Shown here: piece by piece, positions 6,137 to 62,640 of the stretch
Layout: each line of letters starts with the position of its first letter
Position numbering within the stretch: the stretch's first letter is position 1
NCBI GenBank assembly: GCA_963930775.1
Contig: OZ005702.1
Location: 1,798,001 to 1,862,000, forward strand
Source of the DNA: Cliona cf. orientalis
Taxonomy: Eukaryota > Porifera > Demospongiae > Clionaida > Clionaidae
Direction of reading: 5' to 3'
DNA: 64,000 nt
Translations under genes and position numbers: made by a program
Notes under the pieces: model-generated
What the model was told of the DNA's origin: nothing
Seen by the model: the letters and a program-made list of their open reading frames with translations, nothing else
Databases searched by the model: none

Positions 6137-8378
<2,242 letters not shown>

Positions 8379-8457: not shown

Positions 8458-8855
8458 ATAGGCTCATTCTGTAAGAGACTACATGCAGAATCTGATATAA
8501 TGGGTTAATCTTTATTCTATTTAATAAGTACCTATCTCAAACAAGTGTACATTAAATTTTATGTACGTAATTTCCTGCATGCAAACAACACTATACGTGG
8601 AAACACAGATCTGATCACACCTGTTTGTGCTCGCATTTTCATTATGTACACTGATTATGATAATTTTTGTACTCATTCTTTGTGTTGCTACATTATTATA
8701 TTCAAACCTAAAATCATTGAATATTGCATGAAGACGCTTTATTGGTGCAAATTGAACCACATTAATACACGTATAGTATACGGAAAGCGTATACTACAAA
8801 AGTCCACGTGGACAGTGCGCTTCATTTAGATTCAGGTTGCATCAGCACAAATAGA
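8458..8855. other. GOLPH3-TIMM44 intergenic region, probable TIMM44 promoter
   Basis: About 400 bp of AT-rich sequence without coding potential. A short palindromic patch (CGTATAGTATACGGAAAGCG then TATAC) lies at about 8769-8799, just before CCACGTGG, a perfect E-box core at about 8803, some 50 bp upstream of the TIMM44 start. A promoter role is inferred from position. Confidence 0.4.
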
Positions 8856-11800
8856 ATGGCTGCCTGCAGATCATCTCTATGGAGAAGTTCCTACCAAATC
8901 CTCAGAAATCCTTCGATCATCGTAGGCCACAGAACTCCATTACTACCAAGCTGTAGAAACTTACCACCCGTTGCACGTGGCGTCTCAAGATCGCCGCTGC
9001 CCGTATCAAGCAGACTGTATTGTTACTCTCGGAATCTTCATCGCCACCATGGCGTATCTATAAATCGTTTCAGATCTGGCTGGACGTCTACACCAAGGAA
9101 CACTGTCAGATGGTACAGCGCAACCAACCAAGGAGGGGGTGGGGCTTCAGGTGGAGGGGGCGGGGCTAGTGGAGGAGGAGGAGGGGGTGCTGGTAGAAAA
9201 GGCTTCTTTCAGAATTTCTTAGATAACCTCAAGAAAGGTGTGGAAAAGAATCAAGAGATGCAGGAGAGTCTGAAGGGGTTTCACGAAGAGCGAGAAAAGC
9301 TTCACCAGTCCTACGTTGCCCAGCAGGTGAGGCTCAAGTTTGCAGCTGCCTTGGAAAAGATGGCCGGTCTTGGTCGGAGGGGAGCAGAGGGATGGAAGAC
9401 AGTCAGGGACTCCTCTTCGAAGGTGAGCCAGGGAGACCACTTCTACATTTCCTATCTCAGCCTATTTTGGTTCAATTAGCTGCTTCTTTTAATTCTATTA
9501 TTGCTATTCTAATTGTATTATAGCTTAGATCTAGCCAACATACTTCAGGAAATCCTTACTTACTTAACGTTACAGCTGCCCTAGTTTGCAATATCATGCA
9601 TACAGTATCATCATAATTGTATCTGTGTATGCATAACATTATTGATTAAGGCCTTGCAATAATACGTGCATTTCAGGTCTACAAAGAAGCATCGGAAACC
9701 GAGATGGCCAAAAAGGGGCAGGCTATTGGCAGTGAGGTGAGTTCTGCGATATAATTAATAGGGGTTTCCCTATAGGGCAGAGTAGAGCAGCGGTCCATGC
9801 ACCGCTCTACTAGTATTCATCTCCCTTTGATGTGGTTAGTGGAATGTATAATTATACAGGATTGTTTCTGAATTCTGGGGAAACTCTTGATAAACCATAC
9901 TTACTGCAGAAAATCTCTTTCTTTCCTCACGTAGTTTGCAAAAGAGGCACAGAAGACAGCTGAGAAGGTGTCGGAAACAGCAGGAGCCTTTGCTGAAGAG
10001 GTGGCCAAAACTGACGTGGGACAGGCAATCAAAAAGGTCGGCACAAACTATTATTTCAGTCAATGTAAATTGTTCCTGTGGTGGCTGGTGTGCAGTTATA
10101 GCCTTGTCCCCAGGCCACTCCCAGTTTCCAATGTTATACGCTGAAAACATTAAAGAAACTGGAAGGCTAGTACAATTATTTGCATGACATTTGTACTTTG
10201 ATGTATTTTCCAGTTTTATAAAGAGTTTTATAAAGAGTTTGTTGTTGGGTCAATCAACGTTACTGATATGATTGTTGTACATGAATACATGTTGTAGAGG
10301 TTCATTGCTATGTTCTTCGAATGATAGATGAGTTACTTAGCTTAGCATAGCAAAGATTTTTATCCAAAACTTGGACGTTTCGGTCTAGAAGGTCCACGAG
10401 AACAAAACGTCCAAGTTTTGGATGAAAATCTTTGCTATGCTAAGCTAAGTAACTCATCTATCATGAATACATATAACAGTTAACAACTACATGTACCGGT
10501 GGTATATGATTGGAGAAAAAAAGAACTATACATGTATTATAATTTGTATTAATTTTGCTCAGGGTGCTGAGGTGGTGCGTGAGGACCTGATTGATGATAT
10601 AGCCAAGGAGTCTGGTCCCTACCAGCCGCCGGAGAAGATCTTGAGGAGGTCGGACATGGCCACAGACTTCTCCACCCCACAACAGAGGATCATCAAACCA
10701 AACGAGTGAGCAGAGATGAATTTTTTTCTATTTCTCTCTCTAATATCCTGTGTAGCTTACACAAATTCTTCCATGCATATTACGTACACAATATACTGGT
10801 CAGTGTTAAATTTTATTGTACTCTGCTCCCCTCGGTAACTAATCAGATTTTCGTCAACCCCCCTCACCTACCCCCTCCCCTTCCCCTTTTCTTTTACTTT
10901 GTGTGTTTTATTAAATTTTGTTGTATCCAGGGAAGCAAAGGGGGTGGTTGCGACGGAGCAGTCCAACTGGGACAAGTGGAGACAGCAGTGGAAAGAACTC
11001 AAGGAAAATAACCCAGTGTCCAATGGTGAGCAAATTGTTTAAGACCGGTAATTTCTCATCAGATTAACAGAATATTAATTTTCATCGTGGTGTGTATAGA
11101 CACCTCTTGCCATTTTTGTTTAAGGCCATAACAAGAGTGCATTAATGTACTCTTATATTAACTAATTGCCTTATAGTTGTATTATTAAACAATGTACAAT
11201 ATAATACCTCTTGTAGCATTCTATGACCTGAAGGTGAAATATGATGAAAGTGACAATATCATGATCCGAGCGTCTCGTACCGTGACAGACAGAATCGGTG
11301 ACGCCGTAGGGGGTGTGGTCACGCAGACGGACATGGCCGAGGTGCTCGCTGAAATCTTCAAGATTGACTCCAAATTCACCAAGGAGGAGTTTGTGAAGCA
11401 GTGTCAGTTTGAGATCATCCCCACCGTGCTGGAAGCATACCTCAGTGGAAACACTCACGTGCTGGAAGACTGGTGCCATGAAGCTGTGAGTTGCGTGAGG
11501 AAAGTATTATGAGAAGCTACTTGTAGCTGAGAGAGGGTGATGAAGGGAGAGAAGAAGGAGAGAGAGGGGAAGAGAAGGAGATGGAGAGGGAGAGGGGGAC
11601 GATAAAGAGAGATTGATTTACTGATCTTGTGGCTTTTCTTTTGCAGGCATTCAATGTTCTGTCTGCCATCATTGAGCAGCGCTCTCAGCCTGGAGTGACG
11701 CTGGAGTGCAAAGTCGTTGAAGTTCGAGATGTAGATGTAAGTTCTATGTATCAATCTGGAACCATTTTCAGGAGTGTTGCCCTCTCTTTCCCAGAGAATG

Positions 11801-14266: not shown

Positions 14267-14295
14267 GGGGGGGGGGGGGGGGGGGGGGGGGGGGG
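14267..14295. repeat. homopolymer G tract
   Basis: A run of 29 G. Length is likely unreliable in the assembly. Confidence 0.9.
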
Positions 14296-15210
14296 AACTC
14301 GAGTGTTTCTTTATTATCTCTTTCAATGAATTGATTATTAAGGTAGCACAATAAGGTGAGAACACCAAGTGAGTACAAAGCAGTTACGTGCAAAAACGTC
14401 AACACGGAGATGGATGAACTGGCAGTGGATAATAAAATTATACGTAGTACGAAAATACAAATTGATACAAAGTACAAAAAACTATATATACGGCAAGTTA
14501 ACAATATGAACCCTGTGCAAATGATAATAACTGTTGAGAGATTCGATTGATCGAGCTGAAAACGAAAAAAGGAGTGAAGTAGTTAACGGAATTTATTTGT
14601 TCAAGTGATACAAATCTATCAGTTAACGGTGACGTACACTGAGAAATGCAAAGTAACATTATTGATGTACGTTTACTATAATTATTATGCCGTGTGGGTA
14701 GTAATGTTGTTAGTGTGGCACAAAAAAAACTGGCAACAGCACAAAACATGTTGAAGCGTGTCTTGTTGTAGAGTACGTATGATCATGATAAGAAGTAATA
14801 ACTATTAATGAGTCAATTAATTAAGAATGATTGATATTAATATGTGAAATGTACGTAGCTGTGAAGAAGGCCTGACTGCAAACAAATGAATGAAAAATTT
14901 GAATATGATTTTTGTTTAGTGTGCACGTAGCATAAAAATAATAGATGGTTGCAATTTGACAATGTATTATGTGACTTCTGAGATACGAAAGCTGGTATGA
15001 TTCACTGAACGAGCGAGAGAAGAAAGGTGGTACAAAAATAAAGGATGAAACTGCAACAAGTATATAAGTTTGCTGACTATTCTCCGCTTTGCCTAACTTT
15101 GCTTGGACATGACAGATAGTATAATATAAAAGAAACTATGGCGTGCAATTTTAGGAAGTGTAAAATACATTTGTCTTTGAAGTAGAGACTGCTGTCAAAC
15201 TGTTGATCTG

Positions 15211-15307: not shown

Positions 15308-15382
15308 TCAATAGTAGCTGCTGCCTTGAGTGGTCGTGGCGGCCGTAGAGTAGACAAACGTCTGCTGCTGGTGTTCAGTGGT
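15308..15382 (-). CDS. ISL: ISL exon 7 (C-terminus)
   Basis: Acceptor TTTTTAG then 24 codons ([20 protein letters not shown], then SSYY) and TGA. Frame follows exon 6 at phase 0. It has no database-recognisable domain; assignment rests on phase, acceptor, composition and the polyA signal downstream. Confidence 0.7.
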   Translation of the reverse strand, partial: TTEHQQQTFVYSTAATTTQGSSYY

Positions 15383-18300
15383 CTAAAAATAGAACACAAA
15401 GGGAATGCATCATTATGTACGTACTAAAAATAGAACAATATTTTTACACCTACAAGTAGAAAATTAAGCCCATACAAGTACATTAAGAACAGTATGCACA
15501 CAGACTGAAGCACTTTCTGTATATAGCAGCTGCCCTGAAACCACTATTCCTTACGTACAAAACTGTCCATGGATATCACAAAATCGCACAACCTATGGTC
15601 ACCTCATCCTACTAAATTAGCAAAAATAGGCGTTTAATTAAATTTAGTATCATGGTGAATACTCATAAGCTTCACCCCCTCAAATTATGCACCGTACTCT
15701 TAAGGCAAGTAAAGGAATACGTACTGTCTACAGCTAGTATCTCTGGGACGAATGGCTATAAGGAGCTGTGATGAAACGCCCTCTGCCAAACTTGCAAATA
15801 TCTGATCTTTCAAGGACACCAGAAAGGACAGGACTACTTAGTAGCCTGTCTGTCTGTGCCCACCTGGATACACACATCTACGGGTGCTAGCTATGCTTTA
15901 AATTTTTTAATTTATAGAATTTTTGTGTTATTGTCGCCTCTGGGACTGCACAAAGTGTAGCTAACAAAGTGTCTTGGTACAAAAAGGCATCGATCCTGAT
16001 AAACAACTTAAGAGCTTCTCTACTTTTGACACCACTGGGCTACACACAAAGCTAGTGTCCCGATTTAAAAAGGTGTCCTGATAAATAAATTATTTTAGAA
16101 GTTGCACAGTTTAGTATACGCACTTCTATATACACAGCCAGAGAGAGGTGACCTTAATTAGTTCACAAATCCTTAGCACTATGTATGTTATTACAGAGAG
16201 GCTCCACTATGTTACACGTACGTATATATACTCCAGGTGCATTATGATATGTTTATGTGGAAGCAGCCATCAGCATGCAGAGACTGAGGTGATAATATAA
16301 CAAAAAATAAATTGGAGCACTATGATGACCACGAAAGTACACAGACCCCACCACAAGGCAATACTCTCCAGTTGATACGGCCTAAGTGACTTCAGCTTGT
16401 ATTACTTCAATGCATTGTATATATTTATGGGCTTTTTTGAAAGTCGGGATCAGTGCAAGACAAGCAGCCGCTAATGGACTAGGAGACCAGGAATAACACC
16501 GAGCTGGCGAAGTAAAACCCAGCGCCCACACCTAAGTAACCACATTACCAACATAATATTTTCACCACTTATGTATTTTGTTGCACTACAAGTATATTAT
16601 GATAATAAAGGTGCATGGGACTGAGGGTGGTAGCTAGTGGAGGATAATGCAGACAAAAGAAAGTTTTTGTTGCCTTTCTTTAGTTCACTGTATTTTTTCT
16701 CCCACGCTAATTTCCGTCCCACGTATGTATGTCCCTCTCCTTCTTGTCATCCCACCCGTCTCTCTCTCTCTCTTTACTTCTCCCCTCTCACTCCCTCCCT
16801 TCCTATCCTCTCTCCCTCTCTCTCTCCCTCTCCTCTCTCTCACCTACCATTGGCGAAGAGTAGTCCACGCTGGTTTCAAAATGTGCAATAGTGTCCGTTG
16901 GAGAGGCCCAGACTGGGTTCTGTTGATATGTGACAATCGGAGAGACAGCTGTCTGAGTGGGTGTGGTAGGAATCTGTTGCATGGCATCGTAATTGCTAGG
17001 GGCAGAGGGGTAAGTGAAGGCGGACATTCCCGGGTGTGGGGAGATTTGTCCCATGCTGTCCGGCGTGAGTGGAGTTTGTGGCGTTAGAGGAGGGATCACA
17101 GACTGCAAGTAATGTGCGTGGTGAGTGTGCAAAAATAATAGTAAGGAGTGTTTCTCCCTTCCTCCCTCCCTCCCTCCTCTCTCCCTCTCTTTCTTTCCCT
17201 CCCCCCTCTTCTCCTTCATTCCCTCTTCCCCTAAACTCAAACCTATACATGTACACGAAATTCCACTCACATTTCCTGCTCCAGCCTGCAGTGCTTGTTG
17301 TTGGTGCATTCTGGCCGCCTCTGCCTGAATTGCCTTCTTCTTGTCCTTACACCTCTTGTTCTGGAACCACACTCTGATCACCCTCGGGCTCAGTCCAGTG
17401 ATCTCCACCAGTTGCTCCTTCAGTAGTGCGTCCGGGCGTGGATTGGACGCGTAGACAGTCCTCAGTGTCTGCAGCTGTTGCTCGGAGAGAACCGTACGAA
17501 CTCGGGGACCTTTCTCGGAGTTGGAGCGTTTTGCTGACGCAGCAGTGGAAGAGGAAGTGGAGGAGGAAGTGGAGGAGGAGGTGGTGACGGTGGGGGAGGA
17601 AGTGGAGATGGGCGTGGTCTTTGGGGCGGCGGAAGTCGCAGACGGTGATGTCGAGGAGTTGTTGGCATTGGTCGTCATGTTACTGATGTTATCTGCATAT
17701 GGGATAAGTACCGTAAAAATGACATTAATTATTACTGAATTTAATCGGACCTCTTTAAACTTTACACTAGGCATATAATGTAAAAATTTACGTGGGATAA
17801 TAAATCTATGTGACTGCCACTTCATTCACACAGTAAAACTCGAGCAGAAAAGTATCGCTTAGCCTTATAACGTTACCAACAGTACTAACATCAATTCCCT
17901 ATGAACTCATAACATGTACATACATGACCATACAAGTACATGTATAAACATAGTTACCGCCAATGCAGTAGGTAAAGCACAAAGGCCTATAGACTACATA
18001 CTTGAGAGAGAATACCGCTAAATGCCAGCTTGAAGGTGAGACTACGCCGTACACGTGCAGTGAAAGACTCAACACCGCCAAAGTTTGTGAAAACATCTCA
18101 ACAATGTACCCTTTGTTCCTGATCAGCCCAGTGCTACATGTAAGCCATGCATGCTAGCTACAGGCTAGGCTACCACTCCACATGGTAACGCATGGTAGTA
18201 CGTATACTAGTGTAATACATAGCTTGGCTAGCCTGAATATATATCATGCAAAATACATGTACATACATGCAGCTACTGCAATGGGCTTTTGGGTTTTCTT

Positions 18301-20815
18301 TTAGCTGGTATTGGCTATATGTATGTAGCTATCATCTGGAATAATATTTTTGGTGGTCACCCCGGGTAACCACTCCAAAATTTTTCAAAGGAGGTAGCCA
18401 ATTCCCCTATTATTAATAATACCATATGACGCACAAAACTAGCTATAACTTGAGCAATATCATAATAAGCTGAGCACCAGCCTTGGTAATGTCCAGTACC
18501 ACAGCTGCATAAAAATATACTACAGACTAGATCGCATATACATGATGGGCACAGCATTCATTGGTATGTCCAGCATACTAGCTACATAATATGTATGTAT
18601 GTATGTACTATATGAATAAAGTGTTAAAAAAGGGATTATGTCATTGGTAATCATAACACTAATATTAAATTACAGCAATAGCTGCAATGTACGAATATAA
18701 TTATGGGCAGGGCACTTCAAGGTATGTCCGGTATAAGGATCAGTTGCATGCATGCATGCACATAGCGGATTACATCATAGGCTGGGTCGGCTAGGAAACG
18801 CACCCCTCCCCATATTTGTAGTAAACATTGTAATTCAACATTTCCTTCGGAGTTTTTTTCTCATAGACTGGCCGTCTCATACACTCAGTCAGGTCCATGC
18901 ATGCAGCTTCATATGTGCATGTATATACAGTCATGGAGTCACTGAATCCTAGTTATATTATATAGCATCCTTATTAAAGAATGCAGAACATTTACTTTCT
19001 ATATCCTAGGGGAGACCACCCCAAGTCCCCAAGCATTATTGCTTTTTTTCAGTTCTGATTCAGAAAATACTCTAGTTGTATGTTGCATGGCTTTTTTTTT
19101 GCAATTCATAACTCTTAGGGGGGGGGGAGGAGATATCAACGGAATGCTTCTCTAGATCTGCTTACTAGCTGTATACTATTAGCACAAAAATTTCTAAATT
19201 TCAGCGTACCAATTGCAGATTGGCAGCATATATATATATACGCACTCTCGATTCTCTCATGGCTATGGATAGCTACTAGCTATATATATCAAGGTGAACT
19301 ATCTGACAAGATCTCTCTGCAGAGATGCACACTTCCCCCCCTCCCCCACTGGCCCGGCAAACATGCATGCCTGCATATGCATGTGCATGCATGAGATAGG
19401 CAAAGCACAATCTATACTGCATGATAATATTATGTAGACATAAATATTATTATACAGGATGTCAGATGATAGATAATCAGTATACCCCTACTTCACTTTC
19501 TCCCTCTTCCCACTCCCTCAAGCCCTCCCTCCCCTCCCCCTCCCCTCCCTCAGCCACATGAAGGGCCGTGGTCAGGCCAACCCAGCTCATCATCGCATAC
19601 CAGGCACTATACATCATCCAATCTCTCATTCATAATCTTGGAATAAGAAAAAAAAATTATGTTGCAGACACAGAATATGGTATATTATTGCATAGAGGGA
19701 AAATTATGTCATTCTAAGGCTTATAACTGGCCCACTTGGCAGACAGATTGAAGATTAAAAGAAGTGAACATTTTCACTTTTTTGGGTGCCCATGTCTCTA
19801 TATTCTAATTTGGAATGTTCATATTTAGCCTCAGGGTGTGACCATCTTCACTGGCTACATGCACTAGGTATGTGCATGCATGCATGCATGGAGCTAGCTA
19901 GTTAGTCTGGGCTGTACTACAAATTACCATATCAAAAAGATACACATTAAAGTACATATTGTGGTAACCAAATGTGCCTAATACAGTATACGCCTTGTGC
20001 AGTATGTATACAGTAACTACGTACGTACGTATGTATGCGACATTTATTGGGGTCGACAAGATGCATGGGCCAGCAAGTGCACCCCCAAATTAACGTCATG
20101 CATGTAACTGATTTGTTTGTCCATGATCCCTTTCCATCATCAGGCCAGGCTACCCTACACTCCTCGCTCCCGTACCCGTAGCCAATAGTTTGCCTATAAA
20201 AACTTTGGTTGCTAGGCAATTACAAACAAATATGTAGTCACGTACCTGATAGTTGATAGTAGACATGTTATATTATGTGAAAAGCATGAATTTTGGCTAT
20301 ACATACCGGTATGTAATATTGGGGAGCAGTATAATATTACAATATGATATTAGCAGTATTTCATGTGGTGGCATGTGGTCGTAGGCAACATGCTTGGTGG
20401 TCACCCCGGGTAACCACTTCAAAAACTTATTTCAAAGGAGGTAGCCAACACAGAAATCTACTCAGTCACCTAGGAGTGATTGAATTAGAGGGAGACGTGA
20501 CAGAGAGGGAGAGAGAGGAAGAGGGAGAGAGGAGCTAGAGTACATGTACGTATGTAGCTAGCTGCTTTTGGAAAAGACACATCACTAGCGCATGCATGCA
20601 GACACTGAATGAATTATTCAACTACACACAAAACAAAAAAAAACGTTGCATTCCTTTTGATGTTTCATATAGGAGCAAATTGCAGTAGTCTAGCTTCAAA
20701 ATCTTGCAGCATGGCATATATTTTGATAGAAGTCAATATAGCTGCATGTACAGCCATTATCGTAAAATTACGTACCACTCATGAGATCACCATACGTATG
20801 TACTACTGTCTTTTT

Positions 20816-20849
<34 letters not shown>

Positions 20850-22222
20850 GGTCAAGTTAAGCAACCACTATTACTGCACACACACACAAAACATCCCAGG
20901 TAGGTAGCAGACTAGTACATAATTATTGAAGATACGTGCAATGTCACGCACACGTGGATGGATCAATACGTATCTTGTATCAACACGTGTGTGTGGGTGT
21001 GAGGCTGGTGGTGAGTGGGGGAGTGAGGGGTGACCACCACAGAAAGGGGCATTAGTTTACCCTGTGCGTCCTGCCGTAGCAAGCAGGGCACGGGCATGGC
21101 ATGGCATGGCAAGGTGGCACTGGGGCCACGGTCAGCCATGTATGGTAGATCAGTCGCGGTCGGTTGGTCACGCTTCAGTGTCAAGCAGTGACTCAAATCA
21201 GGTCAGATTACCCCTCAATCCCTAGCTAGCAGATGCTAGGCTATAGCTGAGGAATGGTACAACTCCAGGCAATGCACACACATGTATGTCACATGCATCA
21301 CTGCATGCCACTAAATTTTAAACTGTACATGGCTATAATATTATAGTATACAGAACCCACTATAATGGTTTACTTATAGGAGGGTTTCCACTAGAGAATT
21401 TACGATGATGTTTTTAACCTATGGATGAAATATGAATTTTCTAAGGTGATTGCCTTTCCAGCTAGTGACCAGCTAGAGCTAGCTAGTGAGTGACCATTAT
21501 CTTTTGGTTCCAAATCATGATCAGGTTTGTTTATCTTCTTGCGTAGATTGCTTACTTAGAGGAGATGGCTCAATTCTCGAAAGAGTTGCAGATTGTTTAT
21601 CCATACCCATTGACAAACAAAGTGTCTACCACACTAGCTAACACAGCTACTTCATTAACTTCAGTAAAACCTTTTTCTTTACTTTTGTAGATGTGGTGGA
21701 ACCCCAGCATTGGTTTTAAATGCTACCTTAATGACTGCATTTTACAGCAGTTGGACCAAATTCTAAATGGTCATTGATTCCATAATATACTATAGAATGC
21801 GCAAGGTTATTGCAAGCTAAGGAAAAAAAATCACACCCTGGAAATGAAGTTTCAATCACTATAGTTTTGACACCTAATGCGTAGCCATTATCATAACTGC
21901 AAGGTTCCAGCATCTCTCTTGTTTACTGCTGAAGTGTGTCTCGAGGTTGGTTGGGTGTTCATAATGAAAGCCACCCGTGAAGTGCAGAAGTTTGGAAATT
22001 TTTTATTTGAATACAGTACGTAACCGTGGCATTATTATTAAGTACATGTCAGTCGTATGGTGCACGCTGTGATCTGTGGCTGGGGTCATGCAGTGTGGGA
22101 GAGAATGCAACTTGGGAGCAATAGAGCATGCAAAATTTGTGTAGACTGAAACCCTCGACTGCACACTAATATTTCCATGATGAGAAGAGGTAGTGAGAGA
22201 GAGGATGAGAAAGAGGAAGAAA

Positions 22223-22254
<32 letters not shown>

Positions 22255-22464
22255 TTGAACTATGTAGTTGGATAGCTAGCTCAGTCATTTCTACACAATA
22301 CCTCCAACTGCACCTGCACTTTTTTTCATTCTCCCACGACAGACAACAGCCTATAGCTACGTAACACACCACACCCTGCCCTGAGCAGATGCTGTAGCAG
22401 CAACATGCAGTTAGTCTCACTATGCACTAACTAGCTTGCACGTCACATGCATAACTCCAAGCAT

Positions 22465-22506
<42 letters not shown>

Positions 22507-24164
22507 GATGCATTCTTTCGGAGATACTAGGATAAGTCAGACAAGATCTAACGAGAGATTGAGGCTGGGGGCACAAGATCTCGGCCTCGAACAAACACAA
22601 AGATATGCAGCTCTTTCAATAACACACGCACCAGTAGTCTGTTGCATGAGTTAGACCAGTGGGCTCGCGTCACAATCTCTGACACGTCGATCCACACCTC
22701 ACCAACACATGTACGTACTTAGCTACTACATATAGTACATATATGCAGTTATCAATGCAATTTCAACTTCAGTATACATAGTACAACGAAATATGCAGGT
22801 CGTAAGATATGCAGTATGTACGCAGTGTGTATTTATTAGCGGTTTATCTTGTAACAACAGAGCAGCTACTCCCACTTGTTGATGGGTACGCGGTTATCAG
22901 TAGCTAAGGGAGTGGGCAGCTACAGGCACAGGGCATGTGCGGTAGCCTAGTGCAACTTGTTGGCCAGTGCTTGGTTGCTTGGAGATATTCAGGGGGAGAA
23001 GAGGGAGAAAGAGAGAGAGAGATGGAGAGAAGGGGAGAAAGAGAGAGAGAGAGATGGAGGGGGAAGGGAGACAAAGGGTAAGAGAGGGAGAGGGAGAGAG
23101 AGAGAGGAAGGGGGGCTACTATTCAGTATGCTGCTGATGTAATGGTTTTAACTTCCTTGCGGTTGGTACATTCCTTGTCTAGCAACATGGCAAATTTTCA
23201 ATCTTGAATCCTTCCACTGCATACTTTAGCGCACTGATCATAGTTGATTCCCAGTATTGATAACTAAACAAATTGTCTGTTCCCTAATCCACTTCCCTTC
23301 CCTCCTTAATAAACATACAAAGTCATACCACACGACATACAAATGCACAAGTACTTCCTCCTAGAACGTCCTTGTTTCCAAAGAAGCTAGGATGATGCAT
23401 AATATTATAATATTGATAGTCTCTCCACAAACTAAATTTTATGCAAATAGTCCTCGAACTTTCCAGCGAAAATGCTATTAATAATAATTATTATTTACTC
23501 CACAGCTCCCACCATACACATGAGCTGATCGAGAGCTATAAAGTTGCCAAATTCCAACAAGCCACACTATCAGCGTCCTACAGACTAGACCTACACACAT
23601 GCATGCAGCAACTACATGCTGTACGTGCAATGTATCTCCTTCCTACACTATTACAGAATATAGAAACATACTTACGTCTATAGCCAATAGTTGCACACAC
23701 ACACACACACACTAAAAGAGGCACTGTACTAACTAAAGAAGAAAGAAAGAGCCACTTGAAAAACTGGGGTAGGGTAGAAGAAACAACAGTCCTGCTGTCC
23801 CTGAGGGCATTCAGTGGCAGGATGCTCTGGCTAGACACAGTGTACATTGTCTACTTTCAATATTCACAAGATATTATGTAGCTAGCCCAATGATCTGACC
23901 TAAGGGGAATTGGTGGGACTAGGTATAAGCTAGGTGGGAGGGGGAGGTCTCAGGAGGGAGTTGCACACTGCAGCTGTTCCCTGTTTGTTGACTCAATAGC
24001 CAATAGTTTCCCAACATAATATTATTATCGATATTCCTAAGCTCAAGCAATAGCTTGAGGAATACTGTATCTAAGATGGGAGAAGCATGCCACGTTACCT
24101 AGCTACTGTAACATATAGATGTATGAAAACTGGTCTTACTATGCAGGCTTAGCGGGATCAGCTG

Positions 24165-24199
<35 letters not shown>

Positions 24200-27100
24200 C
24201 ATGTGTGCATGTGGTTACTAGGGATGCAGCCTTGCCTATCAGGCTGCAGGGTCAGGGGTCAGAGTGACATATTATGTTTACTACCAGTCCTGCTCTGCCG
24301 GCATACAACAATACATCATGCTTCCTCAAAAGAAGCTAGCTAGCTGCAGCCATGTCCTGGCTGGGACACACTTCATATTGTACACTGCATACGAGGCAAT
24401 CTTGAACACCTGAGCTGTCACAGTTTATTAGCTTGACAATGGGTGGGTGTCTTCGCCACCGCATACCCCCCTCCCCCCCCCCCCCCCCCCAGCGCAGGAA
24501 TTTGCTTAGCAGCCCCCTTTGGATTTTGAATTGCCCCCCTTCCCCCCTTGAATTCTGACTGCTCCGGTCCTTCTGGAGCAAAATCTTTGCAATGAATGAA
24601 CATAATATATACATGTACGAAATAGTATGCATGCATATATTAATTATTATACTAGTGCATACATTTGAACACCTGCATGAGGTGTACGGTTGTATAACTA
24701 GAGTGCTGAGTGTGGTCGTTAGACAACACTAGCTGTCCGACAATGTAGCAGCCACGGTGGCCAGTGTCTGACCTCAGACTACAATCAGCACGGCGCAGTG
24801 CGACCACAACCACACACACACACACTCATACACACACGCGCACACGGTGCACGCTACAACGCTTTAATAATAATTCCACCACACACAGCTTACAAGCAGG
24901 AAGACATGGCATTAGCTGTTGCCAGCTAGCTAGAGGTATTAAGTTCAGTGGCTCCCCCCAAAAAGATTCCTAAGGCATCAGTGTAACAGTAGCATGAGGG
25001 GAGGGTGTGTTTTGGGGAGGAATTAATAATTTATATTACGCTTTAATTAATATTTAAGTTCCAACTACTTGAAGATCAAAGGGAATTGCACCTCAATTGA
25101 ATTTCAGTGGTAGCTACTGGCTGGGGAGAATAACAATTGACTTTTTGCCTGGTAATTAGTCACTTGGGTATACTCGCATAATTCTAAAGAACCAAGAAGT
25201 CACTTGGGTATACTTGTATTTATAAAGAACCGTTGGTGGAAATTAAGCTACATACGTACGTACGTATGTCACATGCATTGTGTTCTTTACCATTGAATTG
25301 CAAGGCGTCGTAGTGGCTTTTGCAGAAGAGCTTGGTTTTGCTGAGGCCAAACTGCTCCCCAGGAGCTAACTGCTTCTCACACGTTGAGCAGCAAAAACAG
25401 TTAATGTGGTATACCTGAAAAAAGAGGGAGAGAGGGAGAGAGAGGGAGGGAGGGAGAGAGAGGGAGAGAGAGAGAGAGAGAGAGGGAGAGAGAGTGGGAG
25501 AGAGAGGGAGAGAGAGGGAGGGAGGGAGAGAGAGAGAGTCAGGAAGAGAAAGTAGTATGTGTGTGAACAGCAATATGTAGCAATTGGTACAAGAGCGTGT
25601 ACACGCACGTACAGACATCAAAGAAAATCGGCAGATTCAAAAGAACCGGTGACAAGTTGTAGCAAGATCAATAGACCGACTCATATTAAGTACAGCTAGC
25701 TAGATGTACACGATCGTGTGTGTGTACGTGTGTATGTGTACCTTCTCTCCAAGAAGACTACAATAAGCACAGCAACTGCGATTGTTCAACATTCAAACTG
25801 AGGCCTATTGCTTCAATGAGCTGTCTTCGCGACGGCTACAGCACTAGCTGTTAGCGAACAGCAGAGATACAAACCATCTCACAGCCAATGACTATAGGTA
25901 CCATAGGTGCTACTCTAGTCTGGCAAATACACATAGATAGGTACATTTTATCAATTTTAGTGCTTAAAAAGTATAAAGTATTTTATTGCCCCTATAAAGA
26001 CACATACTACGTGCTTATTGGAATTATACTGTTACAATATTAGCAACTATCAATCACAACGCAAAGAAATACCATTCTAATACAGTAGAACCTCAGTACA
26101 GCTATTTTACTGATTCTTGTTTTATTTTTGATGCTATTCTTCTATAGCCCTTAATTTTTTGGCCCGTATATAATAATAATAATATTAGGTGACCACAATT
26201 ATACTAGTGCAAATATATATACATTTGTGCTTGTTAGGGAAAAACTAGCTAGTTTCTCCAGATGTGTGCATATGGCAGGTGGGTGGCTGAAGCAGTTACC
26301 TGGGTTTTTGCTTTCATGACAAAGTCTGTGGCTGCAATGGGCTGGAGACAACCGGCGCACTTCACACCAAACAACCTGTGGATAAAGTGACGTGAGTGTG
26401 TGCGTGAGTGAGTGTGTGTGTGTGGGGGGGGGGGGCGGGGGAGAGTGAGTACATGTATCCATCCAAGCTATTATTATAGTAATGGTGGAACTTCTCAATC
26501 TGTTTAATTATTACGACCTCTGAATCGAGATACCCCTATCTCGAATCAGGACACTGTCTGTTGTCTCGGCTACATACATAGATAAATAAGTTTAACAAAG
26601 CAATCTCAGAAATCAGGACACCTCTTTAATCGAGATATTTCCGTGTGTTCCAAGTGGGGTCTGTAATTTAATAGAGAGGTTCCACTGTTAAGGTAGTCGG
26701 TGCTTTTTTTCCAAGAAACTGACGTGACAACAAGAACTATAGCAAAAGGTTTGGCAGTTTTTGAACGAAAAGGATCACGCGTAAAATAATTATCCCAATT
26801 TTGGTCCAAGCTAATTCACCTTGCATTATCTAGCTTGGCTGCAGCAAAGTTTGATCCATCCAATGATCCAGCTAGAGACTCATCATGACATGCATGCACG
26901 TACGTATATTCACATGCCAAAATATTATTTTCTAAAGGTACACAGAATGTATCGATCAGGCCAGCTGCACATAACACATGTAGCTAGCTAGCTCTAAGGT
27001 ATAGGTAGCTAGCCATGGTACCCACCAGGCTTACGTATAATTATCTTTGTCCATAGGAAGGAAGGCTATAGCTAGGGAATGTAATTTGGCTCTCACTGGT

Positions 27101-29346
27101 GAACTCTTGAATGAGCAGAGAGACAGAAATCTTGGCAGCTGTCAATCTTCAAAAACATGCATGTCTACAACATTTGTCAGGAAACAAGCGCCATACCTTG
27201 CACCATTGCTATTATCATGAGTCTACATAATTGTATTACAGCCAATACATTGCAATTCGATATTGGTATGTTATTGCTATACGTACGAACGTGCGATAAT
27301 ATTGTTATGCTGAGTTGCTGTCGGCTGACAGGAAATCGTAGCCATGGCAATGTACAAGTCTGCCGTAGATGTACGGCTATTCGTCGCTGAGCATATTATT
27401 TCACTTGGTCACCGGGAGCTTCAAAGATAATGGCCGTATACTGTAATTACACATATGTACATGCGTATGTACATTAATGCATACGTACGGATATAATATA
27501 ATATTATTGAGAGCGAACTCGAGAGTGCGTAAAATTATTCATTAAGTTTGAGTGTTAAATATAGCCTTGGGGGCTAGACTAACGCAGGTAAGCACACACC
27601 AGGACCTGGGAACCACGTCCTTACACATGTAATATAAAAACCGAATACAACACTATAATAACATGTACTATGTGTGTAGAAAATTTTGGTATAATTACAA
27701 CGTCTATATTGGCATATTATGGGACCGTTTCATAATCATATTACAGTGTATGTACAGGCGCTAGGCACAGGTAAGTATGCAACTGGCAACGGACGTCGCA
27801 ATACAGGGTGAGGCAAGCTACATAGCTAGCTAGCTAGGCTAAAAGTGCAACTATCAGCTACGTACCTAGCTACCTAGCTGCCTCGCTGGCTAAGCTAGCT
27901 ACAAGTACAAGAACACGTACTACATTGTAATAGTACAGCGTGACACAATCACATGACATCACAGCCTCAGCGGGCATGGCACAGCTGCACCATGGAGCCC
28001 AGCCGCCCGCCCGACCGCCCGGACCAAGCAATACAGGGCTATTGTTATGCAATATACACTGACGTACAATGTTATAATACGTATCAAAAAAATTAATAAT
28101 AATATGCATAACAATAATATATTATTATCTATGCATAATTATGTCATGAGTGCATAGCAACACAATAATATTATTATTTCAAGTATAATTATAGCTACTA
28201 ATGCAGGGGGCTCCATACAGACTACCCAAATATTAGCCATAATATTACTATTATATATAATTATGCTACATACTGTACTATCCTTCACTTTCCTTCCGTT
28301 TCCTTGATACCATGCAGCACTGCATGGTCCAATTTAGTATATCTTCGCGGGAAATGGCTACAAGATTTTGTAAGCTTTGGGAGGGAACCCCTGGCTATAA
28401 TATTGGCCCTCAGAGGATCAGTGTACACCTAACTATTCTTTTGTGTTTGCACTGTTATGCAACAGGATACCATCTAAAGCCCCACTTCTCATGAACTACC
28501 AGTAACTGCACCGCTAATTATAACACCAGCTGCATAATACAACGAACGCTTACCTCACCTCACCTTGAAACAGGGAGGGATGTTAAACACAGTTGCCATG
28601 ACTACCAATAGCTACAAGAGCCTGCTACATAGGTCAATAATGTAGAATGGTGCATTATCCCCCCCCCCCCCCCCCCCCCCAAAGCAGTGGGCATATTGGT
28701 ATAGACGAAGGAATGTATAGTTTATATTTTTCACTTCTCAAAAGGGATATATCCAATAGTCGATATTGACTTTTCAATCTGCCTATTCTGAGTAAGTGTA
28801 AATAACCCTAGCTATTCACAATTACACCACAGCACACTCCACCACTACACACACACACACACACACACACATACGCACACACACACACCACTTCCCATGC
28901 ATTGATCTGCAGCGAAGGACGGACGTGTAGCCACATGCAGTATAGTGTCTGACCTCAACCTGCACCCTGGGGAAGCCTTAGGCTGGTGGCTGTAGTGTGC
29001 CAACACCTGGTGCCTAACGCTCTAGAGGAAGTCTTTCATCCCTGGACCGGCCGCCATGCAGAGGGCAACCATAATATACTACGCTCTTGAGTTGAGGAAA
29101 CACACACAGACCACAGCTAGCTCCTCACAGCAGGGGCTATAGTAGTAATTATGGAGTGCAGCTATAAGCTGTTCCAATTAAGGCTAAGAGGGTATTGACC
29201 AATACATGGTGTGGTGCGTATGTGGGTATGTAAAAGAGTTCATGACCAGAAACAATACTTCTATAGTGGTCAGAATGATTCCTGTACTTATAGGCTAGCT
29301 AGTCGATCTTCCAGCCTGGTGCTTGTACATGCACAAGGAAGGCGCT

Positions 29347-29382
<36 letters not shown>

Positions 29383-30355
29383 GAGAGTGAGAGAGAGAGA
29401 GAGGGAGAGAGAGAGAGTGAGGGAGGGAGAGAGACTAAAACACAAAGAGATGTAAAGAGAGCGAGGCATCTAGTATGATATCCACGTTCGATACACGCAT
29501 GCAGCCAGCAAGCACCTTGGGATTCCTGAAAGGCCAGCGTACAGTGTCAACTACATCTCCTCAGCTGTTAATTAGGGGCTGTCTAGTGTGAGCGAACATG
29601 CAGAACACGATGACTGCATCGCTGTGAATAGATTCACCCCTGTACCCCTACAGCGCTATGCGTGTAGTCAGGAACATCAGCTGACAACAGAGTACAAGGC
29701 GTGGGGCGCTTTGCCATCACACCAACCAGCCAAAATCTTATGCAAATTTATGTATGTACATGAATACCCATCCAATGGGGCCAAACCTCAAAATTAATAA
29801 TTATTTTGTTGCACATCTCAACATTAATTTTCTATAATTATCGTCTTGTTTTGGGGTTTTGTAGGATGTGATGATAATATTATGATACCTACATAATATT
29901 ATTTTAAATCAGCTAGTGCACTAATTCGTATACATCATGCATAAAGAGAGCTCCAATGTGGCTGTGATTGTGACGCACATTTTGACATTAATTTTTTCTT
30001 ATCTGCATACAATTGTGGCTTTTCTATAACCATGCATTCAGATTTATAGTATAATACCACAGTGCAATATATACATAATGTCATACGTATAATATTATAA
30101 GGAGTTAGGTACGAGAGGGACGGCCGCGGGAAGGGAATTAAGGGACATTGACACAGTCGCAGATCGTTAGTCGGTGCCAAGAGAGCGGAAAGTCTGGAGT
30201 GATTCGATAAAAACTTGATAGCGGGATGGAATCGCCCATCTGAAACAAAGTTGTATAACCCCCACAGATGTCCACACATGTTCGCCAGCCCGCTAGCCCG
30301 CTTGCCTGTCATATACTTTATCCATACATACGGACCCTACCACAGCTGTATGTAC

Positions 30356-30386
<31 letters not shown>

Positions 30387-33300
30387 CGTACGAAATACTA
30401 TTTAGTTGGCCCAGGTGGAACAAAATATCCCGTTTCCAGAGCAACAGCACCTGGTTGCCACGGTAAGAACGCGTAGTATAACAAAAAAAATAGCGGAAAT
30501 ATGATAGGGGGGCTTTTGCGACATCTCATGCTACTATATACTACTGCTGTGGCATATCATGTAATTATTGATCACAGTATATAGTAGCAATTGCATAGTA
30601 CACTATATACAGGGTATTCCAACATCTACCGTACATGCAGCACTATGATATCATTATTGTATATACCGACCCCATGCAGGGTAGGGCAGGGCTGGGGCTA
30701 AAGCCACATGGAGCCAGGAGTGTGGGTGGCCCCGGCTGGCTAAACATATAGCTCTGGTCTCTACCAAACAATACTGACTATGTACATGTATAATAAGAAT
30801 AATATTATTATTGTTATGCATGCATGATCGGTTGGTTGGTCGCTGGCAGCATAATTAGAACATGCCTGCAGGCCATTCTGCATGTCATTATTGTAATGAT
30901 ATTACTGCCTGTCTCTCTGTCTCACTCTCGACTGTGACCACCGATGTATGGAGAATTGGACAGATTAGGTGTAAATTGACTCGTGTGCGGGTAATTGCGC
31001 ATGCAATGGTGATGAGACTTGAAGAAATAATTTTATCATAATTTCATGTGCGCAGTCTTGCTTGCACAAACTGATCAAATTGTAATTTGGCTGGTGCTTC
31101 TGAGTGCTGTAGGGATATCACTATTGTTCCAATCGTGCATTGCTTCATGCGATCATACTGAGACTCAAAAAGTTAACGGCCAAGGGCAAAAAATTAATTA
31201 TAAAAATGTCAGTCACATTTTATTTTCTTTTGAGAAGGAAGACTCAGTCAATAAAATTAATATGGTGTCTCAATTAATTAAGGCTCAGTGGCCTAGCTAA
31301 CTAATGCACAATACCCATTTTGGTCTTATTTATTAAAAGAGCTATATAGCTGAGTGCCTAAATTACTGTAACAGCAATTCACTAGTATAGTGCAATCTAT
31401 TGTGCACAATTCACGCCGGAATCGTTTCAGATTTTAAGCTACGTACGTCCATTGCAAACGAGAATCCCAGTACAACTTCAAGCTTATAATGAAATACAGC
31501 CCGCAGCCCTACACGTACATGACAGTAGACAGTTATGTATCAGTGATGGGAGAAATCTGACACCACTTACAGCACGTTACGTCATCCTAGCACCATTTGA
31601 TCTACTGACATCACGCCGACTAATTGCTTTGATTAATTGAATTTATACAAACCAAAAATTAATTGCCGACAGCAACAGAACACTATACAATGCCATGAAA
31701 TGCAAATGCATGTCAATACAGCACACCTCATGGAGGAGAGAATTACTAAGGAATAGAAATTCTTGAAAACTTAATACCTTATACAGCAGATTTTTATGGA
31801 GTACAAAATTATCCCCCCAAGGAGTGGATAAGCCTTCAAAATAGTGGAAAAGTGTATAATAATATAAACAATGCTCTCAATTGTTTAGTCAGTTTACATG
31901 CTCAATTATGCACTTTTCAGTGGGTTATCCACTCTCAATGACAATTTACTTGAATTACATTGCAAATTCAGCTTATTATTACATATACATCAAAATATTT
32001 CTAGCTGGTATATACACTAACCTGACGTAGTCATTCTTGCAGTAAGGTCTGCCGTTCTTAATGAAGCAAGTGCAGCTCTCGTCCAGCAGTTGCTGGCACT
32101 CAGCACAGGTGAGGCAGTCGATGTGCCACTCTAGGTCCGGCGAGACGCTCAGTCGATAGTCGTCCTCGATCGGTTTCTTGCAGCCGTAGCAGAGCTTGGG
32201 TCCGAGGGGAGGGGGAGACAGCCCATTCGTCTCTGTATACAAGGCATGTGTATGTGCATGTACAAAAAATGTTATAATGATGAACTGCATGCAACTATGG
32301 TGTATAGTTAAAAAAAATGCAAAATATCAGTTAATACTCATATTTGTGGAAAATACTCAACTGAACTATACATGTATACCGCAGCCATTAAGAAAAATTA
32401 AGGCCTATAATAATTATAATATTATTATAGGAAAAGCGAAGAAACCACATATCGACATGCGTAGAGGGAGACATGTTGGGCAGCGAAGCTCTAGAAGGTT
32501 GGTGCTGGCAGTGTGCTGTGTGGTCAGATGAAGCCAGCCAGAGGCTGCAGAAAAATCAACACCGGCCTCTCCGTGGCGTTTGGGAAGGGGAGGGACAGCC
32601 TTCTGCTGCAAAAACCTAAACCTAGCTTAATTTGTATGAAAGTCTTTTCTTCGACCGCCAGCCATCATAATATATACACACATGCACTGGGCTTCCGTAT
32701 AATAATAATATCCACCTACTGGCAATCACTGGATATTTGGTAGCACCATGAGAAGCTATATACGCACACAGCAACAGCACATGACGGTTTGGGTAGGTTT
32801 CCCTAGGCTACCCGGCTAACTACCCTTCTCTCCCCCCCCCCCCCTCCTCCCCTCACTCACTCCTGGATCAGCCATGAAAACTTTGGAGTCAGCAACCACA
32901 AGGGTGGTTGTATGGTCCCTCAAGCACCCATACATGAACATGGGGAAGCGGCATGGTTTGCAGGGCTGGCTAAACTTTAGCCTTTTGAGGTATAGTAGCT
33001 TATAGCATAGGTAGCTGTACAAGAGTACTTGTAGCTGATGCAAGGACTGGTGTATACTAAGCAAAAAAAAAATAATAATAATAATAATAGTCTAATAGTT
33101 AGCTACAGCATAACTTAGGTGGAGAATCCGCTGCACTTGCATGCATATAGCTCCATGAAAATTCAGTAGATCTATCTTCTACTACGTACATACAATGTTA
33201 TTATTATACCAATCCCAAACTTAAGGGGCAACCATCCCTGGCCAATGCCAGCTGCTCAGGCAAAACTAACTACATACGTAAGCTGGCAAAAGGCAGAGCC

Positions 33301-35266
33301 ATGGATGCACTCAGGTGTCCAAACTTGAGGACTAGGAGTGGTAGGTTTATTAATAATTATTTGTTTGATTCAGCGTGTGCATCATGCTATCAGGAAGGAA
33401 ATGGCTTAATAACTGACAGAGGGGGAAATCCTGATTATGTACACAACATCATTTATTAACTGTTGCCTAGCTACATACATACATACACCGAAGTACCAGT
33501 GTATACACTAACTGCCATTTGATGGGTGCAGTGTTTTATACACGCACTGCGCCACATACACACTAACTCAGTGCAGCACTGGATGCACGAGACGAAATGC
33601 ACTTTAATTAATTTTAGTGAGCGATTAAATTGAGTAGGAGTTACGACGTAAGTACTAGCTGGATTGTTTGTTTTGAGACTTATCAAGCAACAGAGGGCAA
33701 CAAATGATCACCAATAATAATATTATAGTGGCCTCACAACAGTGTAGAGTGGACTGTATCTATAATATAACTACTTAATGATAATAATATTAGACAGTAT
33801 CGTGCATGCAGCAACTGAAGAAATTTGATGCTCAATAAGACACACATCATTTATGCTAGAAACGGGCTCTCGTCATTAGCGATACAAAGTACCGCATGTC
33901 TGTTCTACAAAGCTCCTTGATCACCTTTCACACGCTCACACAATTACTGAACAGTTACAGGCGCACTCCAGCTAGCTATTGCTTTAGTGAGGCACTAGCC
34001 ATTGACTGGCACACGTGGCTCATGTGCTGCATAATATAGTCTGCTCCCTGAGAAGAATCATATGCAAACATGTGCTTGTCTATATAGTATCGTGTTACAA
34101 TTGCAAGGGAAAAAATGAGACATATCTAAAACGGATCAATGTCACGCCTGGTTGCCTGCAAATTTAGTACGCTATCCAGTAGACTAGATTGCCATCATTC
34201 TATGTAATAATAATAATAATAATAAAAATGACTGTGCATGGCATGGTGGAAGGGTATATACGTAGCTTAAGTTTGAATTTTTAAAACGAAATGCTCATTG
34301 AAGACATATCTCGAATTTTTGCCATACATCATTGTTATTATGTATGCTCAACTGTATGTGGTCAAGCCACAATCCAGCACAAAGTCAAAACACTGAGCCT
34401 TTGGATGAAACTATGTACTTGCACTCTAGAACAATGCAAGCATAGCCAGTGCTATAGCAGGGAGGGACAGAAGTACAAGCCAAAACTGAGAACTGATTGA
34501 GCCTAGCTCAGCATGCACACTTAATCATTAAGAGATTTTCAGCTTAAATTGACTGTACGGATAAGGGTCACTACTACCATATTCTATAATTATTGTGATC
34601 TATGCTACTACCTATGCAACATTAAAATGCTGGGAATTGCATGGCGGCCTAGGGATGAGTGAGGCTGTAGCTAGGGATTGATCATAACTGTTACAATAGT
34701 ACCGATATTATTGCTAATATGCTGCAGTATGGGTACTTAATTAACACTAGCAGAATCTGATACTGTACTGTAAATGTGTGACCCTTGCAATTGGCTGATA
34801 CGCGGAGACTGTACTGTGTGGAGTAAACTTTCTACTTGCCTTACCACTGCTACTCCTGCATGCTATGCTGCAGCAGGTGGGATGGCTAAAGCTTACTCTG
34901 ACAGCTGATTTATGAGTGTTTTTCCAAACTGGAGCTGCAACCTGTCACTACAAAGATTAGCTCCGCTCAATGGCTAGGGCACGCGTATAAAAAATATTTA
35001 CGCGTATAAGACGTACACTTTTGGAGCTATTCTCACTCGAGCCAGTGTTGTGTGTACGTTTCAAGCACCTCAAAGTTTACTACTCAAAACAGACAGGCGG
35101 CAACGCAACACAACACAACAAACCTTGCGCCGCGCACATTACAAACAAACGCGAGCTATATTTTTTTTACCTAGATGTAGCTGTGCATGTATGTATGACG
35201 ATATTATCATGATAGCCCTCCTCCAAACTCACCGGCATTGTTGCAGTTAGTATTGATATTCTCCAT
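15308..35266 (-). CDS. ISL: Islet-type LIM-homeodomain transcription factor
   Basis: Seven exons (minus, 5' to 3'): 35266-35233, 32232-32022, 26375-26300, 25414-25291, 17692-17271, 17102-16848 and 15382-15308, totalling 1197 bp and 398 aa, with frame kept at every GT-AG junction. LIM1 covers residues 26 to about 80 ([21 protein letters not shown]), LIM2 about 88-141, and the homeodomain 209-268 ([51 protein letters not shown]). RVRTVL, NPRPDALxKEQLVE and NKRCKDKK are diagnostic of Islet rather than Lhx1/5 or Lhx3/4. A Ser/Thr-rich linker (about 153-200) separates LIM2 from the homeodomain. Islet controls neural, endocrine and muscle fates in bilaterians; its role here is unknown. Introns total ~19 kb, far more than in the genes to the left. 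SCAPER is the upstream neighbour on the same strand. Confidence 0.95.
16848..17102 (-). CDS. ISL: ISL exon 6 (Pro/Ser/Thr/Gln-rich C-terminal region)
   Basis: Encodes 85 residues from [15 protein letters not shown] to [11 protein letters not shown], resembling a transactivation region. The donor GTAGGT follows at once. Reading through the donor would give a short tail ending in an Arg/Glu repeat from the adjoining CT tract (stop near 16803), a possible intron-retained isoform. Confidence 0.85.
17271..17692 (-). CDS. ISL: ISL exon 5 (linker and homeobox)
   Basis: Residues 149-289. A low-complexity Ser/Thr linker precedes the complete 60-residue homeodomain (residues 209-268), which lies uninterrupted in this exon. 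Helix 3 reads [16 protein letters not shown] Gln/Ala-rich segment ([12 protein letters not shown]) follows. Confidence 0.97.
18351..18402 (+). repeat. ~50-bp dispersed repeat, copy A
   Basis: GGTGGTCACCCCGGGTAACC, then ACT-CAAAA and CAAAGGAGGTAGCCAA. The first part is a near palindrome. It matches 20394-20448 in the same orientation. Confidence 0.8.
20170..20219 (-). repeat. dispersed repeat shared with 59461-59510
   Basis: The reverse complement of this stretch (TTGCCTAGCAACCAAAGTTT, then TTATAGGCAA and GGCTA) is nearly identical to 59461-59510 in a SCAPER intron. Two copies 39 kb apart, one in each gene. Confidence 0.8.
20394..20448 (+). repeat. ~50-bp dispersed repeat, copy B
   Basis: Second copy of the element at 18351-18402, with a small insertion (AACTTATTT). 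Both copies lie in ISL intron 4, 2 kb apart. Confidence 0.8.
20817..20848. repeat. (CA)n microsatellite
   Basis: About 15 CA units; a shorter interrupted CACACA patch follows at 20878. Confidence 0.9.
22465..22506. repeat. (GCAA)n microsatellite
   Basis: About ten tetranucleotide units of CAAG in ISL intron 4. Confidence 0.9.
24166..24199. repeat. (GT)n microsatellite
   Basis: About 17 GT units in ISL intron 4, followed by GCATGTGTGCATGTGG. Confidence 0.9.
25291..25414 (-). CDS. ISL: ISL exon 4 (second half of LIM2)
   Basis: Residues 108-148. [12 protein letters not shown] gives H110, C113, C116 and C119 of LIM2; LFCKSHYD supplies the final C and H. The 3' splice site is preceded by a long sense-strand CT tract (25420-25540). 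Confidence 0.97.
26300..26375 (-). CDS. ISL: ISL exon 3 (first half of LIM2)
   Basis: Residues 82-107, [13 protein letters not shown] then DFVMKAKTQ, with the first two zinc cysteines (C88, C91) of LIM2. Splitting LIM2 after the K-x-Q motif is common in LIM-homeodomain genes. Confidence 0.96.
26376..32021 (-). other. ISL intron 2 (5.6 kb), candidate regulatory DNA
   Basis: No exon found. It holds (CA)n near 28850, a C20 run near 28660, a GA/G-rich tract at 29347-29434, (TATG)n at 30357-30386, a GC-rich patch at 27960-28025 (CCGCCCGCCCGACCGCCCGG) and otherwise AT-rich unique DNA. Several short ORFs show no protein character. Confidence 0.45.
32022..32232 (-). CDS. ISL: ISL exon 2 (LIM1)
   Basis: Residues 12-82. 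[25 protein letters not shown] and [19 protein letters not shown] give all eight zinc ligands of LIM1. SPDLEWH and LDESCTCF are hallmarks of Islet LIM1. Confidence 0.97.
32233..35232 (-). other. ISL intron 1 (3.0 kb), candidate regulatory DNA
   Basis: No exon found. Contains a C run near 32830, (ATA)n near 33070 and 34210, and AT-rich unique sequence. As the first intron of a developmental regulator it is a plausible enhancer location, but that is inference only. Confidence 0.4.
35233..35266 (-). CDS. ISL: ISL exon 1 (start codon)
   Basis: ATGGAGAATATC and on to AATGCCG, then donor GTGAGT; eleven codons plus one base, phase-compatible with exon 2. The protein start [11 protein letters not shown] is short, as in other Islet proteins, which begin close to LIM1. 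Chosen on donor quality and phase. Confidence 0.75.
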
Positions 35267-36129
35267 AGTCGATTAGTCGCTCGATCTTTCTCTTCTCTCT
35301 TCACAAGATATCGAGCCTCTGAGCTAGCTGGAGCACTTTGCCGGGCGGCTAAAATTATGCTATAACCTTGCACACTCGCACGATGGATGGTATACTATCT
35401 GCGTTTCAGCAAATCGCCGGTAGAAACTTGGTAGTTTAATAACCACGCACAGACGGAGCGAGCTAAGCGTGCATGGGTGCTACGGGCGGACAATACACTT
35501 GCATCAGCGCTTATATACAAACAGGCATGCATACCATACCATCCGATCGCCCCCGGGGCCCCATGTCCGCTACGCTCGAGCTGAGCATAATATCGCATGT
35601 GAGCCGAGCTGTACTGTAGCTGTAAGCATGCAGAATACGTCACCAACGTAGGTAGCTAGTGGCGATACACATATTCATAGCCCCGAGGTCGAATCGGTGT
35701 ATATCACCTTCGCACTTTCCACAATACGTTCCACAATACGTTTTATCGCACACAGCTGATTTGATCTGCCCTTCCGCAAAAATACTGTCAAATATTCCCC
35801 CCGCCCCCCAAATGACCAAAACAACAAATTAATGGCAGTAGGTGTGGTAAATTTTTAAAAGGAGCTGCAGCATGATTAATCATAATACAATCAGTAAAAA
35901 TGCTCATAACAATTTGAAAGTGATGATTGGAAAGTGATAGATGTAACAAATAAATAATATTATGTTCACTTGATGTGACGGTACTTGTCCAGTTTTTGAT
36001 GTAGAATGGCAAGAATAATAATACAGTGGAACAGAACGCATAATTTGAGAGAGAGCTTACAAAAACACAAACCCAAAATGAAGAGTAAAATGAACAATGT
36101 CATGGAGAATGGGTAGCTAAAATGATTGA
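35267..36129 (-). promoter_or_regulatory. ISL promoter region between SCAPER stop and ISL start
   Basis: These 863 bp must hold the SCAPER 3' UTR and polyadenylation signals and the ISL 5' UTR and core promoter. The ISL-proximal part (35420-35720) is richer in CpG than the surroundings (CGATCGCCCCCGGGGCCCC, GTCCGCTACGCTCGAGC); the SCAPER-proximal part is AT-rich. I see no clear AATAAA for SCAPER. Promoter activity is inferred from position and composition. Confidence 0.55.

Positions 36130-62640
<26,511 letters not shown>

Follow-up and report, generated by a model that had tools for sequence, protein, structure and literature searches.

A head-to-tail Islet–SCAPER gene pair in the sponge Cliona cf. 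orientalis as a probable genomic regulatory block

In the 2017 eLife study by Gaiti et al. (PMC5429095), Isl-Scaper is given as one of 60 metazoan microsyntenic units and as present in the sponge Amphimedon queenslandica, where enhancer-like elements are predicted in introns 10, 17 and 21 of the 25 Scaper introns. The same study reports adult enhancer-like signatures for 43 of the 60 units, above the level of random neighbor pairs, and finds that Nematostella and C. elegans do not share the Isl-Scaper pairing; hence the constraint on linkage is not absolute. Both the ancient animal pair, which the initial annotation of the present locus had invoked, and the enhancer-like signatures within Amphimedon Scaper introns are thereby traceable to print. 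The same applies to its claim of a sponge Islet sequence working as an enhancer in a vertebrate, since a 2023 review (PMC10176946) describes Islet-like GFP expression in zebrafish driven by a sponge Islet enhancer. From vertebrates, an enhancer close to Isl2 and Scaper in the mouse is reported in PMC10917818 to give staining consistent with Isl2, and a gene list in a figure legend of PMC4287527 has ISL2, SCAPER and then RCN2 and others in order on human chromosome 15. Among the open-licence papers listed, PMC5429095 and PMC10176946 were the two that mention Scaper along with sponges or Amphimedon, and others may exist. The Islet–SCAPER pair is already known from a sponge and from vertebrates, and the locus described here is a clean further example.

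The DNA analyzed, hereafter the window, is a stretch of 64 kb corresponding to positions 1798001-1862000 of the chromosome-sized contig C14 in a genome of 216.8 Mb and 149 contigs. SCAPER is followed by Islet on the minus strand in head-to-tail arrangement, with the following elements (exons from high to low coordinates).

36130..62640, minus strand, SCAPER coding span, ATG at 62640 and TAA at 36130, spliced model with 19 exons
SCAPER exons 1 to 7, minus strand: 62640-61963, 61773-61682, 61590-60273, 59939-59903, 57483-57330, 56695-56575, 54690-54550
SCAPER exons 8 to 14, minus strand: 53108-53037, 51491-51195, 50996-50841, 50195-49828, 48079-47786, 46903-46535, 44255-44112
SCAPER exons 15 to 19, minus strand: 41509-41304, 41162-41101, 38899-38812, 37667-37588, 36406-36130
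35267..36129, spacer of 863 bp from the SCAPER stop to the Islet ATG
15308..35266, minus strand, coding span of the Islet LIM-homeobox gene, ATG at 35266 and stop at 15308, 7 exons, 398 aa
Islet exons, minus strand: 35266-35233, 32232-32022, 26375-26300, 25414-25291, 17692-17271, 17102-16848, 15382-15308

The Islet model has GT-AG borders at all introns, the longest of which measures 7.6 kb, and consistent phases throughout. Its product combines a pair of LIM domains with a homeodomain of Islet type and lies nearer to ISL than to LHX or LMO proteins: among the best 60 of 93 PDB matches, the LIM domains score highest with ISL-1 (165 bits, followed by LMO4 with 101 bits), and the homeodomain reaches 104 bits with ISL-1 versus 49 bits with LHX4, the best other homeodomain-only chain. 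Among the best 120 of 798 database matches, the closest proteins with a named organism are from Halichondria panicea (55% identity) and Em0009g1284a (48%), whose prefix we take to stand for Ephydatia muelleri. At its very start, the model is similar to the database hits P0003 and P0008, and at its very end to P0001 and P0002 and, less so, to Halichondria; as both ends thus align with some of the eight closest hits, the start and stop used for measuring the spacing are supported. A tree of 17 rows (the window protein, its eight best hits and eight named bilaterians from the 120 matches listed; midpoint-rooted, without cnidarian or placozoan sequences) separates the window Islet, two named sponges and six organism-less proteins from the eight bilaterians with a support of 100/100, the branching order inside this group of nine being mostly undecided. 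With sponges as the closest named sources of Islet in this comparison, a sponge origin of the window is likely. In the C-terminal part of the protein, at about residues 293-321, many residues are the same in the window Islet and in all eight of the closest hits.

For SCAPER, a spliced model was built with a human SCAPER sequence as guide, followed by an exon-by-exon check of reading frames. The guide is aligned almost end to end, with the model being incomplete between 44112 and 41509, where at least one further small exon is to be placed. The exon opening at the ATG at 62640 encodes a SCAPER_N domain (Pfam, E 4.1e-19), and the homology extends over the full length, including the C-terminal half, in this model lacking at least one small exon. 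For the middle region, 641 database proteins were matched, with annotated SCAPER among the best 120 of them, and the C-terminal half, which is free of the coiled coil, matched 19 proteins, of which 13 are named SCAPER, the top one being from Branchiostoma with 36% identity. A SCAPER from a named sponge was found neither among the best 120 of the 641 middle-region matches nor among all 19 matches of the C-terminal half. It is hard to conceive that the two genes are misidentified, in the sense of a different LIM-homeobox gene or a non-SCAPER protein with a coiled coil, a reading for which no support was found: ISL-1 chains outscore other LIM and homeodomain chains among the PDB matches considered, and the coiled-coil-free half of SCAPER retrieves mainly named SCAPER proteins. 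The initial annotation of an Islet-type LIM-homeobox gene beside SCAPER, both on the minus strand and 863 bp apart, is exact in its coordinates and agrees with PDB, Pfam and database matches.

Each of the two genes is found at one place only in the genome. The SCAPER_N profile gave a single match across the 216.8 Mb, and all four matches of a 326-aa SCAPER piece fall within the SCAPER locus. The Islet protein gave 17 matches, six at the Islet locus and 11 elsewhere, the latter with identities of 31-47%, coinciding with LIM or homeodomain matches and headed by a LIM domain with 47%. The two genes are adjacent, with no gene in the 863 bp between their coding ends, and nested intronic genes may exist beyond the 20 open frames of the whole window covered by the Pfam scan. 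What is observed directly is thus the order and strands of the genes, their spacing and their presence at one place of the genome, and the chance that two given single-copy genes become neighbors is estimated to be of the order of 1e-4, assuming 20,000-40,000 genes. As the boundaries are exact and lie on a chromosome-sized contig, order, strand, spacing and intron content of the block can be compared for retention.

Like the Amphimedon unit, the present locus has Islet adjoining SCAPER in a sponge, with many SCAPER introns and several of them longer than 1 kb. The 18 introns of the model have a mean length of 1.2 kb, and 10 of the 18 exceed 1 kb, which may be ordinary for this genome. Amphimedon Scaper is described with 25 introns, three of which bear enhancer-like elements; the 18 introns modeled here, with at least one small exon missing, were derived from sequence alone. 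The locus also resembles the vertebrate ISL2–SCAPER locus in having orthologous neighbors. In contrast to the head-to-tail arrangement with 863 bp in between, however, human ISL2 and SCAPER are tail-to-tail. A Pfam scan covering 20 open frames of the window gave no match to RCN2, PSTPIP1 or TSPAN3, which come after SCAPER in the human list.

Like genomic regulatory blocks generally, the locus places a developmental transcription factor next to a gene that is unrelated to it and has long introns. A developmental regulator as target and an unrelated bystander are both present, the bystander status of SCAPER being taken from its family and not from expression. The defining marks of such blocks are conserved non-coding elements and enhancer activity; the present locus would belong to them by its gene content. 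On published grounds, the likeliest reading is that the pair forms a genomic regulatory block in which Islet is the target and SCAPER the bystander. Some of the control DNA of Islet would then lie in or near the pair, i.e., in the SCAPER introns, the 863-bp spacer and the long introns of Islet, and a break of the linkage would sever Islet from its enhancers, so that SCAPER would stay beside Islet. We infer that the enhancer features published for sponges would extend to this species, and likewise the placement of the elements. This block reading is favored by the adjacency and single occurrence of the two genes, by the published enhancer findings, by the largely copy-free intron 13 of SCAPER and by the number of SCAPER introns longer than 1 kb, while the low count of CpG islands compared to background, detailed below, the repeat load of the SCAPER intron islands and of other introns, and the incomplete conservation of the pair among animals speak against it. 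An adjacency that is plainly inherited and has no regulatory reason in this lineage appears improbable. It would fit a block that has no surplus of CpG islands over the background and a window whose own regulatory DNA is only putative, but the pair has been reported across distant phyla and, according to PMC5429095, conserved pairs are enriched in enhancer-like signatures versus random neighbors.

Regulatory DNA was approached via retention of CpG in a CpG-poor genome, which is a weak proxy. The window shows a CpG o/e of 0.50 and a TpG/CpA excess of 1.25, and the background has a mean CpG o/e of 0.53; as both are CpG-poor, stretches keeping their CpG may be unmethylated. The background totals 190 kb, with a single region taken at 0.5 Mb from each of the 19 contigs C1-C19, and is a non-random sample in which exons, promoters and repeats are unmasked. 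Against this background with 50 CpG islands in 190 kb (2.63 per 10 kb), the block has only six in 47.3 kb (1.27 per 10 kb), and an enrichment of the block for CpG islands was consequently rejected. Moreover, the method detects the Islet 5' end but not the SCAPER start (peak 0.82), so at least one promoter is missed. At Islet, the following stretches were obtained.

34871..35890, presumed promoter, a CpG island spanning the 5' end of Islet, with an o/e of 1.03 and a maximum of 1.39 over 300 bp
27126..27805, CpG-rich part of intron 2 of Islet, with an o/e of up to 1.73 over 300 bp, a candidate for a regulatory element or an internal promoter
29876..30500, another CpG-rich part of Islet intron 2, with an o/e of 0.99 and a peak of 1.14, less strong as a candidate
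17411-17935, CpG island covering part of the Islet homeodomain exon

A second copy in the genome was looked for and not found for both 27126-27805 and 29876-30500. The peak of the former, at 27246, is reached by 0.13% of the background windows; as 2 of the 19 background regions also attain a value of 1.73, about half such a peak would be expected per 47 kb, and it is not rare. Of the 1020 bp making up the island at the 5' end of Islet, 624 lie within the spacer, where a motif scan also gave a TATATAA at 35517 on the minus strand. AATAAA is absent from the 863-bp spacer. Run-through from SCAPER to Islet was considered on this basis and dropped, as 824 of 1263 windows of equal length are also without AATAAA. 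A further CpG-rich stretch with a 300-bp peak o/e of 1.69 lies at 14276-15055, just downstream of the Islet stop.

In the SCAPER introns, two CpG islands are present, each containing a high-copy repeat. In each genome search, at most 40 candidates were scored, so that the copy numbers given are minimum values and matches of low copy number may have escaped, above all for introns 4, 7, 14 and 16.

53176..53758, interspersed repeat located in intron 7 of SCAPER, with 39 or more further copies of 88-99% identity (40 of 269 candidates scored)
53839..54138, CpG-rich flank of the intron 7 repeat, 300-bp o/e 1.22, weakest candidate, copy search spanning 53176-53950
43183..43338, short interspersed repeat located in intron 14 of SCAPER, with 39 or more further copies of 82-91% identity (40 of 546 candidates scored)

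More than half of the CpG island 53176-54200 consists of the intron 7 repeat, and this part of the island is, as an interspersed repeat, not ancient regulatory DNA. The island was accordingly rejected as regulatory DNA for 53176-53758, with at least 39 other copies, and retained for the flank, the o/e of which is reached by 2.7% of the background windows. In intron 14, repeat 43183-43338 sits within the CpG island 43026-43550 and counts against this island as embedded control DNA. Two of the three longest SCAPER introns searched hold further high-copy repeats. Intron 4 has a short one at 59439-59681 with an internal inverted match and two weak matches near the opposite end (40 of 1558 candidates scored), and intron 16 bears one at 38901-38998 (40 of 132 candidates scored). 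SCAPER intron 13 (44256-46534) is largely copy-free, with short matches near both ends only (40 of 44 candidates scored). The locus thus yields a short list of candidate fragments, and both SCAPER intron islands, tempting at first, turn out to be repeat-bearing. Regarding the repeat family of 53176-53758, 11 of the 12 best other scored copies are on C1 at about 18.9-33.9 Mb; C1 (37.5 Mb) is the largest sampled contig, and this part of it may be unusual.

The CpG proxy favors, if weakly, intron 2 and the 5' end of Islet over SCAPER. Of the initial annotation, gene identities, strands, positions and spacing hold up, the regulatory block is probable on published grounds, and the putative regulatory DNA embedded in the SCAPER introns gains little from this proxy. 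Less likely than the block, albeit deserving serious attention, is that Islet is run mainly by its own promoter and introns (e.g., 27126-27805), with SCAPER introns devoid of Islet enhancers and the linkage either inherited or set by a promoter placed 863 bp behind SCAPER. The absence of second copies for both Islet intron 2 islands, the high-copy repeats in both SCAPER intron islands and the extension of the 5' end island into the spacer would suit this explanation. However, Scaper introns bear enhancer-like signatures in Amphimedon according to PMC5429095, the flank beside the intron 7 repeat of SCAPER retains a peak o/e of 1.22, and CpG retention is a weak proxy with peaks like that at 27246 recurring in the background. 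A more speculative and rather doubtful variant has the main Islet control DNA in the two CpG-rich stretches of Islet intron 2 plus the spacer, the SCAPER introns invaded by repeats and the block held together by a promoter packed against the SCAPER 3' end. If true, such a promoter-held block would be the reverse of the published Amphimedon picture. The genomic regulatory block with SCAPER as bystander remains our preferred reading of the locus.

To the left of the Islet–SCAPER block, Pfam matches mark coding stretches for glucosidase II beta (PRKCSH; 4451-5875) and GOLPH3 (GPP34; 7371-8378), both on the plus strand. Also on the plus strand, a 237-aa open frame at 8766-9479 is without a Pfam or PDB match and appears to resemble the N-terminal end of TIM44, a protein of mitochondrial import. 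RNA families gave no matches in the 64-kb window at gathering thresholds. The homeodomain search of the genome returned 29 matches, a number small enough to be compatible with a sponge. Five homeodomain matches lie inside 162 kb at C12:7759917-7921574, a group which we assume might be a sponge NK-type homeobox cluster.
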